From: Candidatus Planktophila dulcis
GTDB lineage: Bacteria > Actinomycetota > Actinomycetes > Nanopelagicales > Nanopelagicaceae
Length of the DNA: 64,000 nt
Assembly: GCF_002288225.1 (NCBI RefSeq)
Contig: NZ_CP016777.1
Location: 310,001-374,000 of the forward strand
Direction of reading: 5' to 3'
In this document: piece after piece, positions 18,684 through 27,222 of the stretch
Position numbering within the stretch: position 1 is the stretch's first letter
How the letters are laid out: each line of letters begins with the position of its first letter
Made by a program: the position numbers and the translations under genes
The notes under the pieces: generated by a model
Database searches by the model: none
Seen by the model: the letters and a program-made list of their open reading frames with translations, nothing else
Told to the model about the DNA's origin: nothing

Positions 18684-18695
18684 ATAAGTAATGAA

Positions 18696-19112
18696 TTACT
18701 TAGCTGCTGCCTTCTTACGACGGCGGCGCTTTGGAGCAGCTGCTGGAGCTGCTGCCTTCTTCTTGCGGCGCTTTGGAGCAGCCTTCTTAGCTGCTGCCTT
18801 CTTACGACGCTTTGGAGCAGCCTTCTTAGCTGCTGCCTTCTTACGACGCTTTGGAGCAGCCTTCTTAGCTGCTGCCTTCTTACGACGCTTTGGAGCAGCC
18901 TTCTTAGCAGCTGCCTTCTTACGACGCTTTGGAGCAGCCTTCTTTGCTGCTGCCTTCTTACGACGCTTTGGAGCAGCCTTCTTAGCAGCTGCCTTCTTGC
19001 GACGCTTCTTTGGTGCTGCTGTTGCAGCAGCCTTCTTACGACGCTTCTTAGGTGCTGCTGGTGCAGCTGCCTTCTTGCGCTTCTTTGGAGCAGATTTCTT
19101 AGCTGCAGCCAT
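18696..19112 (-). CDS. lysine/alanine-rich histone H1-like DNA-binding protein
   Basis: A 138-residue protein made almost only of Lys, Arg, Ala and Pro. The core is a 13-residue repeat of the form AAPKRRKKAAAKK. No folded domain is visible. Such tails resemble eukaryotic histone H1 and the C-terminal tails of actinobacterial HU proteins (HupS, Hlp), which bind and compact DNA; here the tail stands alone without an HU domain. The ATG at 19112 has AGGAG about 10 bases upstream; an in-frame extension to 19154 lacks one. The opposite strand is open only because of the repeat. Confidence 0.85.
   Translation of the reverse strand: MAAAKKSAPKKRKKAAAPAAPKKRRKKAAATAAPKKRRKKAAAKKAAPKRRKKAAAKKAAPKRRKKAAAKKAAPKRRKKAAAKKAAPKRRKKAAAKKAAPKRRKKAAAKKAAPKRRKKKAAAPAAAPKRRRRKKAAAK
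18763..19074. repeat. 39-bp tandem repeat array (8 units) inside the H1-like gene
   Basis: Units begin at 18763, 18802, 18841, 18880, 18919, 18958, 18997 and 19036. The central five are nearly identical and the outer ones have diverged. Each encodes 13 residues, so gain or loss of units keeps the frame. Confidence 0.88.
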
Positions 19113-19336
19113 GTGTTTATCTCCTAATCGGAAGGGTTCGGATCCGTCACCCAAACCTGTTTCGTGGATAAGTGTGACTGAATATGTAAAGAATTACCAC
19201 TACATTGTGAGAAAAATTGCAGTGCGTGTCGCTAATTATTTTTTATTTTTTCTATGCTCTTTCGCAATTTTGCTAACTATTTTTCAACCAGATTTACCGA
19301 AATTTGGGAAAAAATGTTGAAAATTTGGTGCACGAG
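19113..19336. other. AT-rich upstream region of the H1-like gene
   Basis: These 224 bp are clearly richer in A and T than the neighbouring genes, with T-runs near 19238-19250. I see no ORF with coding character and no clear terminator for the MFS gene that ends at 19337. The region presumably holds the promoter and leader of the H1-like gene. Confidence 0.4.
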
Positions 19337-21512: not shown

Positions 21513-23180
21513 ATGAAGTTGCGTTTGGCGCTCGCTCAGATAAACCCCACGGTCGGAGACCTTGCGGGTAATGCTGCGCTGATTACCCAATCAGTCGATC
21601 AGGCTGTTGCAGCCGGTGCCCATATCGCAATCTTTCCTGAGATGGTGCTGACCGGTTATCCGGTGGAGGATTTAGCGCTGCGCCCTTCTTTTCAGGTGGC
21701 AAGTAAGAGCGCACTTACAGCACTGGCCACACAATTAGATATGAGCATCGTCTCTATCGTGGGTTACTTAGACCAGGTCGATGGCAAGCCACAGAATATG
21801 GTCGCAGTCATTGCAGGTGGGCAAGTAAAGGCGCGTTATGCAAAGTGCCATCTGCCTAACTACGGCGTCTTTGATGAGTTCCGCAATTTTGTTGCAGGAG
21901 ATTCAACCCTTGTCGTGCGCATCCATGGCATCGATGTTGGCATCGCCATCTGTGAAGATCTCTGGATCGATGGGGGAATTACCGCGCAGCTGGCAGAGCG
22001 CACGCCAGGGCTCGTCATTGTTCCCAATGGATCTCCCTATGAGAGAGCCAAAGATGATGTGCGCCTTGCACTGGTTACCAAGCGCGCTCGCGAAGCGAAG
22101 GCTCCACTTGCCTATGTGAATATGACCGGTGGCCAAGATGATCTGGTCTTTGATGGCGACAGCATTGTTGTGAATTCTGATGGAGCCGTTATTGCTCGCG
22201 CTCCTCAATTTGAAGATGGTGTGATGATCGTTGATGTCGATGTTGCACCTGGGACATCAACTCCTGATGTCATTATCTCTGAAGATTCTGTGGAGATTGC
22301 AAAGCCTTCTATTCCTGGAATTGCTCATCGCCTTGGTGATGAAGAAGAGATGTGGAACGCCATTGTTGTGGGCCTTCGCGATTATGTGACTAAGAATGGC
22401 TTTACATCAGTCCTCGTTGGTTTATCTGGCGGCATTGATTCAGCTCTCGTTGCAGCACTTGCCATTGATGCATTGGGCCCCGATCGCGTGCACGGTGTTG
22501 CTATGCCAAGTAAGTATTCATCTGAGCATTCGATTGAAGATGCCCAATTGATGGCTGCAAATACCGGCCTTGGTTTTCGCATTATTGAGATCCAGAAGAT
22601 GGTCGATGCCTTCCTGAATGAGGTAGAGCTCACCGGACTTGCTGAAGAGAATGTGCAGGCACGTGTGCGAGGAACAACGCTGATGGGCCTTTCTAATCAA
22701 TTTGGCCATCTTGTTCTTGCCACAGGAAATAAATCAGAGCTCGCCTGCGGATACTCCACCCTCTATGGCGATGCTGTCGGTGGTTATGCACCGATTAAAG
22801 ATATTTATAAGACAGATGTGTGGGCACTTTCTCGTTGGCGCAATCAGGTGGCCGCGGATGCAGGTGAAGTGCCACCGATTCCTGAGCGCTCCATTACGAA
22901 GGAGCCCTCTGCTGAGCTGCGTCCTGACCAAAAGGATTCTGATTCACTTCCAGAATATGAAGTATTGGATAAAGTCTTAAAGGCCTATGTCGATGATGAT
23001 TTGGGACGCGATGCCCTTATTGCTGCAGGCTTTGATAAAGCACTTGTCATGCGAGTGATCTCAATGGTCGATAGGGCCGAATATAAGCGGCGCCAATATC
23101 CGCCTGGCACCAAGGTCTCCAAGCGTGCCTTCGGTAAGGATCGACGCCTGCCTATGACAAGTAAGTGGCGCGAACTCTAA
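21513..23180 (+). CDS. nadE: glutamine-dependent NAD+ synthase
   Basis: Makes NAD+ from deamido-NAD+, ATP and glutamine. The 555-residue protein has two domains. The N-terminal nitrilase-fold glutaminase has its triad at about Glu43 (FPEMVLTGYP), Lys111 (RYAKCHLPNYG) and Cys147 (ICEDLWIDGG). The C-terminal synthetase has the ATP-pyrophosphatase P-loop GLSGGIDSALVA and the later STLYGDAVGGYAPIKD segment. The glutamine-using form ties NAD synthesis to glutamine supply, and the next gene is a glutamine synthetase. Confidence 0.95.
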   Translation: MKLRLALAQINPTVGDLAGNAALITQSVDQAVAAGAHIAIFPEMVLTGYPVEDLALRPSFQVASKSALTALATQLDMSIVSIVGYLDQVDGKPQNMVAVIAGGQVKARYAKCHLPNYGVFDEFRNFVAGDSTLVVRIHGIDVGIAICEDLWIDGGITAQLAERTPGLVIVPNGSPYERAKDDVRLALVTKRAREAKAPLAYVNMTGGQDDLVFDGDSIVVNSDGAVIARAPQFEDGVMIVDVDVAPGTSTPDVIISEDSVEIAKPSIPGIAHRLGDEEEMWNAIVVGLRDYVTKNGFTSVLVGLSGGIDSALVAALAIDALGPDRVHGVAMPSKYSSEHSIEDAQLMAANTGLGFRIIEIQKMVDAFLNEVELTGLAEENVQARVRGTTLMGLSNQFGHLVLATGNKSELACGYSTLYGDAVGGYAPIKDIYKTDVWALSRWRNQVAADAGEVPPIPERSITKEPSAELRPDQKDSDSLPEYEVLDKVLKAYVDDDLGRDALIAAGFDKALVMRVISMVDRAEYKRRQYPPGTKVSKRAFGKDRRLPMTSKWREL

Positions 23181-23214
23181 TTTTGTAACACTGCCGTAAC
23201 TTCACTTTGGCACG

Positions 23215-24534
23215 ATGGGCCACATGTCCCCAAGTGAGAACATCAGCAAGCAGCAAGAGTTCGTCCTTCGCACTATCGAAGAGCGAGATATTCGTTTCAT
23301 TCGTCTGTGGTTTACCGACATTCTTGGAACGTTGAAATCTGTCGCTATCGCACCTGCTGAACTTGAAAATGCCTTTGAAGAAGGAATCGGTTTTGATGGT
23401 TCTGCGATTCAAGGATTTGCTCGCGAATTTGAATCCGATATGTTGGCAAAGCCAGATCCTGCAACATTTACTATCTTGCCTTGGCGCGCTGAAGCACAAG
23501 GTGCTGCGCGTATGTTCTGCGACATTACTCTGCCAAGCGGTGAAGCATCTCCTGCCGATTCGCGCAATGTTCTTCGTCGCACCTTAGAAAAGGCCGCCAA
23601 GATGGGATACACCTGTTACACCCATCCTGAAATTGAATTCTTCCTCTTTAAATCACAACCTGAAAAAGGTGTGGCACCTGTTCCCGTTGATCAAGGTGGC
23701 TACTTCGATCACACACCAGCTGTTGTGGGACATGACTTCCGTCGTCAGGCAATTACGCTGCTTGAGGCAATGGGTGTCTCTGTTGAATTTAGCCATCACG
23801 AAGGTGCCCCTGGCCAACAGGAGATTGATCTTCGTTATGCAGATGCCTTAAGCACTGCAGATAACATCATGACTTTCCGCCATGTGATTAAAGAAGTAGC
23901 TCTGAACCAAGGATTCTTTGCATCCTTTATGCCTAAGCCCTTTACTGATCATCCTGGCTCTGGAATGCACACTCACGTCTCACTCTTTGATGGTGAGAAG
24001 AATGCTTTCTATGACTCCAGTGCAGAGCTCAATCTTTCAACAGTGGGCCGCCAATTTATTGCCGGCATCTTGAAGCATGCTGCAGAAATTACAGCGGTGA
24101 CAAACCAATGGGTCAACTCTTATAAGCGCCTGCAAGGTGGGGGAGAAGCACCTTCGATTATCAACTGGGGCCACAATGATCGTGGAGCTCTTGTGAGAAT
24201 TCCTATGTATAAGCCAAAGAAAGAGAACTCAACACGTATTGAATTCCGCTCACCAGATTCAGCATGTAATCCATACCTTGCCTATGCGGTGATGTTAGCT
24301 GCAGGTCTTAAGGGAATTGAGAAGAAGTATGTGCTTGAGCCATCGACTGACACTCAACTACTTCCATCAAATCTTGAAGAGGCAATCCTTGTGATGGAGA
24401 AGAGTGAACTTGTGCGCGAGACGCTGGGTGAGCATGTATTTGATTACTTCCTTCGCAATAAGCGCTCTGAGTGGCAGGACTATCGCCGCCAGGTCAGCGC
24501 CTATGAATTAGATCGATATTTACCCGTCCTCTAA
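23215..24534 (+). CDS. glnA: glutamine synthetase, type I without adenylylation site (GlnA2-like)
   Basis: Ligates ammonia to glutamate using ATP. The 439-residue protein has the GS signatures GFDGSAIQGF, the metal and substrate region HPEIEFFLF, PGQQEIDLRYADAL, the HTHVSLF segment and the arginine-rich site RIPMYKPKKENSTRIEFRSPD. The usual adenylylation motif of GSI-beta enzymes (NLYDLPP-like) is missing; the matching segment reads DTQLLPSNLEEA. The shorter length and missing tyrosine resemble mycobacterial GlnA2. Control must therefore be by other means. Heliorhodopsin follows after 36 bp, and a heliorhodopsin-glutamine synthetase interaction has been reported in related actinobacteria. A second ATG lies three codons in. 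Confidence 0.94.
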   Translation: MGHMSPSENISKQQEFVLRTIEERDIRFIRLWFTDILGTLKSVAIAPAELENAFEEGIGFDGSAIQGFAREFESDMLAKPDPATFTILPWRAEAQGAARMFCDITLPSGEASPADSRNVLRRTLEKAAKMGYTCYTHPEIEFFLFKSQPEKGVAPVPVDQGGYFDHTPAVVGHDFRRQAITLLEAMGVSVEFSHHEGAPGQQEIDLRYADALSTADNIMTFRHVIKEVALNQGFFASFMPKPFTDHPGSGMHTHVSLFDGEKNAFYDSSAELNLSTVGRQFIAGILKHAAEITAVTNQWVNSYKRLQGGGEAPSIINWGHNDRGALVRIPMYKPKKENSTRIEFRSPDSACNPYLAYAVMLAAGLKGIEKKYVLEPSTDTQLLPSNLEEAILVMEKSELVRETLGEHVFDYFLRNKRSEWQDYRRQVSAYELDRYLPVL

Positions 24535-24558
24535 CAAGGATTTTGGCAAGGACTTCTG

Positions 24559-24564
24559 TAGCAT
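24559..24564 (+). promoter_or_regulatory. candidate -10 for leaderless heliorhodopsin mRNA
   Basis: TAGCAT ends 6 bases before the ATG at 24571, so heliorhodopsin may be transcribed on its own as well as with glnA. No good -35 is seen at 17 bp. Confidence 0.5.
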
Positions 24565-24570
24565 TTTGCT

Positions 24571-25338
24571 ATGGCTAAAGAGATAAACGCAGGATCAATT
24601 CGTCGCTACAACCTCATTGCAGGTTTCTTCCATCTTGTTCAAATGGCGGTAGTGCTTGTCCTTTCGAGTGACTTCACCTTGCCTATTGTTGCCCGTTACG
24701 CAGCAGGACCTCCAGGAAGTGATTTTGCAGAACCTGTCACACTTTTGAATGCACCCATCGGTCTGACTGTTGGGATATTTCTAGGACTTTCAGCTTTCTT
24801 CCATTTCTTAGTTGCAAGCCCACAATTCTTTAGCCGCTATAGCGCAGGCCTTGCAGCTCACCGCAACTACTTCCGTTGGGTTGAATACTCAATCTCTTCA
24901 TCAGTGATGATCGTTCTCATCGCTTTGATTACTGGTGTCTCTGATGTTGTTGCCATCATCTGTCTCTTTGGTGTGAATGCATCGATGATTCTCTTCGGCT
25001 GGCTTCAGGAAAAGTATGAGCAGCCAGGCAATGGTGGATGGCTTCCATTTATCTTTGGTTGCATCGCGGGCGCAGTTCCATGGATTGCACTCTTGTTCTA
25101 TGTCTTAGCTGTCGGAGGACCAGGCGATACGAAAGCACCAGCATTTGTCTATGGAATCATCTTCTCAATCTTTTTCTTCTTCAACACCTTTGCAATCGTG
25201 CAATATCTGCAATACAAGAAAGTCGGTAAGTGGTCTGACTATCTACGGGGAGAAAAGACTTACATCACGCTCTCTTTGGTTGCTAAATCTGCACTCGCAT
25301 GGCAGATCTTCTCGGGGACCTTGATTCCACCTCAATAA
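24571..25338 (+). CDS. heliorhodopsin
   Basis: A 255-residue seven-helix retinal protein of the heliorhodopsin family, close in sequence to the actinobacterial type protein 48C12. The retinal Schiff-base lysine is Lys239 in helix 7 (SLVAKSALAWQIFSGTL). The counter-ion position is Glu105 in helix 3 (FRWVEYSISSS). The active-site histidines are His21 and His78, and FGWLQEKYE forms the helix 4-5 region. Heliorhodopsins sit with the N-terminus inside the cell, have slow photocycles and are not known to pump protons. Position after glnA suggests a role in nitrogen metabolism, and retinal could come from the crtYcd-blh genes at 58297-59939. Signalling partner and output are not visible in sequence. 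Confidence 0.95.
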   Translation: MAKEINAGSIRRYNLIAGFFHLVQMAVVLVLSSDFTLPIVARYAAGPPGSDFAEPVTLLNAPIGLTVGIFLGLSAFFHFLVASPQFFSRYSAGLAAHRNYFRWVEYSISSSVMIVLIALITGVSDVVAIICLFGVNASMILFGWLQEKYEQPGNGGWLPFIFGCIAGAVPWIALLFYVLAVGGPGDTKAPAFVYGIIFSIFFFFNTFAIVQYLQYKKVGKWSDYLRGEKTYITLSLVAKSALAWQIFSGTLIPPQ

Positions 25339-25383: not shown

Positions 25384-25428
25384 ATGAAGCTCCGCGGACT
25401 CCTCCTTATCCGCCGTAGCGAGGCCTAA
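25384..25428 (+). CDS. leuL: leucine-rich leader peptide of leuA
   Basis: A 14-codon reading frame, MKLRGLLLIRRSEA then TAA. Four of 14 residues are leucine, three in a row (codons CTC CTC CTT) and followed by Ile and two Arg. It starts just after a promoter and ends 78 bp before leuA. This is the form of a leucine-sensing attenuation peptide: scarce charged tRNA-Leu stalls the ribosome on the Leu run and changes folding of the RNA that follows. Leaders of this type before leuA are known in Actinobacteria. Confidence 0.82.
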   Translation: MKLRGLLLIRRSEA

Positions 25429-25498
25429 CAACCGGTCTCCTCGCTGCGGAGTTTGGTGTTGCCGGTAAACACCTTCGGTTAACCAAACAAATTAGGAG
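25390..25498 (+). promoter_or_regulatory. leuA attenuator: competing RNA hairpins before leuA
   Basis: Hairpin 1 pairs 25413-25423 with 25439-25449 (11 bp, one G-U). Hairpin 2 pairs GTTTGGT at 25451 with ACCAAAC at 25482, or in an alternative form GGTGTT at 25455 with AACACC at 25468. CTCCGC at 25390 in the peptide coding region can instead pair with GCGGAG at 25446. The CTCCT Leu codons are complementary to the leuA ribosome-binding site AGGAG at 25494. No T-run is present, so control of translation or Rho access is as likely as intrinsic termination. Confidence 0.6.
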
Positions 25499-25506
25499 CT
25501 AAGTAA

Positions 25507-27222
<1,716 letters not shown>

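Follow-up and report, generated by a model that had tools for sequence, protein, structure and literature searches.

A heliorhodopsin gene in the slot between a GlnA2-type ligase gene and leuA of Candidatus Planktophila dulcis

The window analysed here is a stretch of 64,000 nucleotides (positions 310001–374000) of the 1.348 Mb single-contig genome of Candidatus Planktophila dulcis, a genome of the acI/Planktophila type with Ca. Planktophila versatilis and IMCC25003 among its relatives. It contains, on one strand, a nadE gene, a glutamine-synthetase-like gene and a heliorhodopsin (HeR) gene, with leuA and its putative leader as the right border (Table 1). The first-pass annotation had described a complete HeR with Lys239, Glu105, His21 and His78, located 36 bp downstream of glnA and near nadE, and the open reading frames, the gap and the residues were all confirmed; this is the layout of the GS group operon. 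The HeR product, which also carries S235, clearly exceeded the curated cut-offs of two profiles, and its retinal-binding lysine K239, glutamate counterion E105 and histidine pair H21/H78 were invariant across 79 classified HeRs. The leader upstream of leuA encodes the peptide MKLRGLLLIRRSEA followed by strong hairpins (25384–25506), forming a putative attenuator; an Rfam search around leuA returned no match. Elsewhere in the window, the minus strand encodes a histone-H1-like Lys/Ala/Pro repeat protein with KKAAPKRRKKAAA repeats (18696–19154); facing it on the plus strand is a long ORF, also repetitive (18691–19320), that is probably mirrored by these repeats.

Table 1. Features of the nadE–leuA region, in window positions.
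Feature	Positions	Strand	Support
nadE, glutamine-dependent NAD+ synthase	21513..23180	+	NF010588, 676.8 bits
GlnR-type box GTAAC-N6-GTAAC, 5' of glnA2	23185..23200	+	family conservation and genome-wide pattern scan
putative extended -10 element (TGG-CACGAT) of glnA2	23208..23216	+	position and conservation in upstream alignment; inferred
glnA2, GlnA2-type glutamine-synthetase-like ligase	23215..24534 (439 aa; likely start 23224, 436 aa)	+	class-wide orthology, active-site substitutions
leaderless -10 box TAGCAT of HeR	24559..24564	+	6 nt 5' of HeR ATG; conserved TAnnnT
heliorhodopsin (HeR)	24571..25338 (255 aa)	+	profile search: PF18761, 332.5 bits (cut-off 26.7); NF038020, 345.6 bits (cut-off 100)
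leuA leader peptide of putative attenuator	25384..25428	+	sequence; stable fold z = -5.05
leuA, 2-isopropylmalate synthase, right border of slot	25507..27222	+	NF002991 and TIGR00970 over cut-off

Judged by its genes, the window locus is another member of the published HeR–glutamine synthetase (GS) locus, or 'GS group', of acI actinobacteria. Cho et al. (2022) described in IMCC26103 the order panB, NAD synthetase, AbGS, AbHeR, oxidoreductase and leuA (PMC9529153), and panB, nadE, GS, HeR and leuA share one setting in both organisms, as do the HeR residues, including K216, K217 and K220, and the GS substitutions Ala55 and Pro238. In contrast, the window HeR carries Q151 where IMCC26103 has E151, no Gfo/Idh/MocA gene separates HeR from leuA, and the genome contains two GS genes instead of three. 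The grouping of NAD synthetase, GS and HeR also matches the class 1 HeR co-transcripts recovered in Planktophila by Bulzu et al. (2021; PMC8612252); the window HeR differs in having a predicted promoter of its own. Of the ten groups of HeR partners listed in a survey from 2024, GS is one (PMC11109279). The arrangement is already published and not new; our additions are the GlnA2 identity of the enzyme, the cassette behaviour of HeR, its own predicted promoter and the lack of specificity of the binding lysines.

The earlier statement that HeR had been reported to bind and modulate GS in related actinobacteria is borne out by the literature for this very gene order. Binding of AbHeR to AbGS was detected by ITC with a Kd of 100 µM in detergent and 6 µM in vesicles; it was lost in the K216Q, K217Q and K220Q variants and became about three times tighter in E151Q (PMC9529153). 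The kcat/Km of AbGS was 5.4 for the enzyme alone, 8.0 with HeR in the dark and 12.2 with HeR in the light (PMC9529153). For glutamate, however, this range (5.4–12 per M per s, with a Km of 27 mM) contrasts with 900–28,000 for real GSs (PMC9529153). AbGS is thus over 70-fold less efficient than even the poorest of the reference GSs, which is how an enzyme assayed with the wrong amine would be expected to behave. AbGS slowly and partly complements an E. coli glnA mutant, so that it can form some glutamine, and Cho et al. remarked on Ala55 and Pro238 and left an alternative reaction possible (PMC9529153).

Our comparisons indicate that the window 'GS' is the class-wide actinobacterial orthologue of GlnA2. 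In a protein search it matched all 148/148 genomes of the class, the best copies showing 64–100% identity, while the highest-scoring paralogue among the matches listed reached 37% identity and 212 bits. The canonical Asn264 is replaced by Pro (HPGSGMH), as in all extracted orthologues save two with Ala, and Ser53 by Ala, as in almost all of them (Ser in three, Val in one), so that the active site departs from that of a canonical type I GS at both positions. The protein also falls short of the TIGR00653 GlnA equivalog cut-off (424.3 bits vs 429.15). The other GS of the genome, on the other hand, is canonical and keeps FDGSS and DNGSGMH. In the Streptomyces-sized genomes of the set (L144–L146), Pro238, Glu310 and the same start were found; since Glu55 and Asp150, named in the Streptomyces study (PMC8998196), were unmatched by motif count in that comparison, the case for orthology depends mainly on the search across the class. 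Krysenko et al. (2022) characterized the GlnA2 of S. coelicolor (SCO2241) as a gamma-glutamylpolyamine synthetase with a Km for putrescine of 0.55 mM, in which Ser53 is lost and Asn264 is replaced by Pro238; GS activity was absent in vivo, and a phosphate-release assay gave activity at unphysiologically high ammonium (PMC8998196). The window protein resembles it in both substitutions, in its class-wide lineage and in a gTnAc promoter motif, but its gene has a HeR neighbour, and none is reported for the Streptomyces gene. By analogy, window GlnA2 may ligate glutamate to amines instead of forming glutamine from ammonia, and gamma-glutamylation of putrescine-like amines seems the more likely physiological reaction compared with bulk ammonia assimilation. 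Genomes of acI carry putative spermidine/putrescine transporters. When signs of a dedicated polyamine-catabolism gene set were looked for with PF07722, weak, generic glutaminase-like matches alone were obtained, and we rejected them as evidence of PuuD. Among the titles and abstracts found, none linked heliorhodopsin with polyamine in the sense of the GlnA2/amine idea.

The first-pass annotation had also pointed to a glnA product devoid of the tyrosine motif used for adenylylation. The motif is indeed absent from window GlnA2, and the genome's canonical GS has it (DLYEL), but as a clue this was rejected, since its absence is ordinary for GlnA2, being general in the GlnA2 sequences examined, and non-adenylylation is a background condition of the whole family. 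GlnE was absent from the window's own genome and from 11/11 family genomes tested, while it occurred in 106/107 other genomes of the class; with both motif and GlnE missing, window GlnA2 is not an adenylylation-controlled GS (GSI-beta). Even so, a tyrosine motif is retained in the genome's canonical GS.

Two promoter regions were considered. Upstream of HeR, all 30 relatives with an adjacent GS and 39/49 of those without had a TAnnnT motif at -12/-13; most other offsets gave 0–3 matches, and this conservation argues against a chance occurrence. A leaderless -10 spacing is present in 21/55 ORFs of the window, so the HeR box is not special in that respect, and a sigma-70 -35/-10 scan of the region gave no promoter, the sole signal being of the leaderless -10 type. 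These data support a leaderless promoter proper to HeR, from which the rhodopsin could be expressed separately, as the first reading of the TAGCAT motif had proposed. As for glnA2, its first ATG (23215) overlaps the conserved -10 element and reads ATG-TAG in L004 and other loci, which makes ATG 23224 the more likely start. Every one of the 44 regions upstream of glnA2 in the family contained a relaxed pattern, [GT]TAACN6GTAA[CT] (mean after shuffling, 0.15), which was consistent with the GlnR consensus GTnAC-n6-GTnAC (PMC10704036), so that the box upstream of glnA2 fits a GlnR-type nitrogen-control element. The strict form GTAAC-N6-GTAAC was located at only three sites genome-wide, before glnA2 (333185; window 23185), glnA1 (784302) and amtB (831151, named from its sequence), which suggests that the streamlined genome has a minimal nitrogen regulon of the GlnR type. 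The argument is one of position and not of number, because the looser GTNACN6GTNAC was not enriched genome-wide (10 sites vs 40 for the reversed control). No GlnR-type box was found in the HeR upstream regions.

HeR was present in 132/201 family genomes and GlnA2 in 171/201, covering all 16 genera. Among the genomes with both genes listed, adjacency occurred in 29/53 of the own genus and in 0/44 of other genera, so the gene order, whose conservation had been proposed as a check, is kept in part of one genus; draft genomes may hide some adjacencies, but the single-contig genomes G100, G107, G051, G067 and G079 are clearly non-adjacent. The spacing was 36 nt in 20/30 adjacent loci, and adjacency was kept in several sublineages. 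In many actinobacteria nadE lies near glnA2, often divergently. In loci that lack HeR, the leuA leader, which borders HeR in the window, comes immediately after glnA2; this was observed in L179 (95% GlnA2 identity) and also in L181, L095, L101 and L113, from which HeR is read as an accessory one-gene cassette in a fixed glnA2–leuA slot. On the HeR tree, adjacency requires approximately four changes, and a single monophyletic origin was rejected. Non-adjacent HeRs have varied neighbours. In several genus members with the slot devoid of HeR (L095, L097, L101 and L105 among them), nadE does not lie beside glnA2, which is preceded by cysK-cysE-like genes, named from sequence. Some relatives (G057, G068 and G187) carry a pair of HeR genes separated by a few kb, and in G187 a HeR fragment with an internal stop lies upstream of the intact copy. 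Compared with L009, the window HeR was 84–85% identical in its 5' half and 99.7% in its 3' half, with flanks at 95–98%, while the 5' half of the L009 gene was 94.7% identical to that of L012; HeR is read as a recombination mosaic whose alleles appear to have been swapped within the slot, though L009 may be a MAG chimera.

Those residues named in the AbHeR binding study that were compared are all present in the window HeR, save E151 (here Q). The three ICL3 lysines (K216/K217/K220) were conserved in 29/30 adjacent and in 48–49/49 non-adjacent HeRs; being equally invariant without a GS neighbour, they were rejected as a signature of GS-coupled HeRs and do not constitute a GS-specific interface. 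Position 151 differed most, being mostly E/Q in adjacent and mostly T in non-adjacent HeRs.

The best explanation in our estimate, quite possible though not yet probable as a whole, is a HeR cassette, flanked by glnA2 and the leuA leader, that has its own leaderless promoter, can be transcribed by read-through from nadE-glnA2 as well, and may activate GlnA2. If both proteins interact as in IMCC26103, membrane-bound HeR would be a weak, light-boosted and non-essential activator of GlnA2, whose upstream region carries the GlnR-type nitrogen-control box, and bulk ammonia assimilation would be carried by the other, canonical GS of the genome. For this proposal we could draw on what is shown above, namely what the genes are, the orthology of GlnA2, the conservation of promoters and operator and the limited spread of the adjacency, and on published work for binding, light effect and Streptomyces GlnA2 activity, while the substrate and the function in the organism we infer. 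It accords with the presence of the named AbHeR residues (the one exception, Q151, corresponding to the exchange that tightens binding), the low AbGS efficiency, the loss of Asn264 in all extracted orthologues and the DNGSGMH kept by the other GS of this genome, the Streptomyces enzyme that releases phosphate with excess ammonium and lacks GS activity in vivo, the putative polyamine transporters, the conserved HeR -10 box and the published co-transcripts. The partial complementation of the E. coli mutant, the invariance of the binding lysines in HeRs without a GS neighbour, the many relatives with HeR elsewhere or no HeR in the slot, and the weak, generic PF07722 matches where a polyamine-catabolism set was sought all speak against it. 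Our confidence in the mechanism is moderate to low, since a single published system supplies all the functional data; binding and light activation of GS by HeR are published for IMCC26103 only, and gamma-glutamylpolyamine synthetase activity of GlnA2 for S. coelicolor only.

A lack of any functional link, with HeR occupying a convenient slot beside a housekeeping gene, transcribed from its own promoter and acting elsewhere in general light sensing or with another partner, is in our estimate only slightly less likely. The 0/44 adjacency outside the genus, the 24/53 genus genomes in which both genes are non-adjacent, the empty slot in a close relative, the several changes on the HeR tree, the leaderless promoter, the varied neighbours and the non-specific lysines all favour it, whereas the ITC binding and light effect in IMCC26103, the short-spaced adjacency maintained in several sublineages and the co-transcripts count against it. 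The proposal of the first-pass annotation, that HeR lets light tune the assimilation of ammonia by a true GS not subject to adenylylation, we consider unlikely. It gains from the light-raised phosphate release with ammonium and the weak glnA complementation of the homologue, and from the GlnR-type box common to glnA2, glnA1 and amtB, but the GlnA2-type active site, the very low GS efficiency, the separate canonical GS and the Streptomyces orthologue without GS function in vivo are at odds with it. What stands of that proposal is the published HeR–GS effect; the enzyme concerned is GlnA2 rather than this genome's canonical GS for ammonia assimilation. Support for a control of ammonia assimilation by light is weak, and a light-modulated GlnA2, or no functional link at all, is no less likely.

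Actinobacteria of the acI lineage rank with the most abundant bacteria of fresh water, and there is continuing debate about the function of HeR. Activation of GS, the best-known role claimed for it, was reported with an enzyme whose orthology and active site identify it as GlnA2. By analogy with Streptomyces, the HeR-regulated enzyme of acI could be a gamma-glutamyl-amine ligase and the published 'GS' effect a side reaction, an improbable reading in our judgement; if true, light would steer the use of polyamine or amine nitrogen in these organisms.
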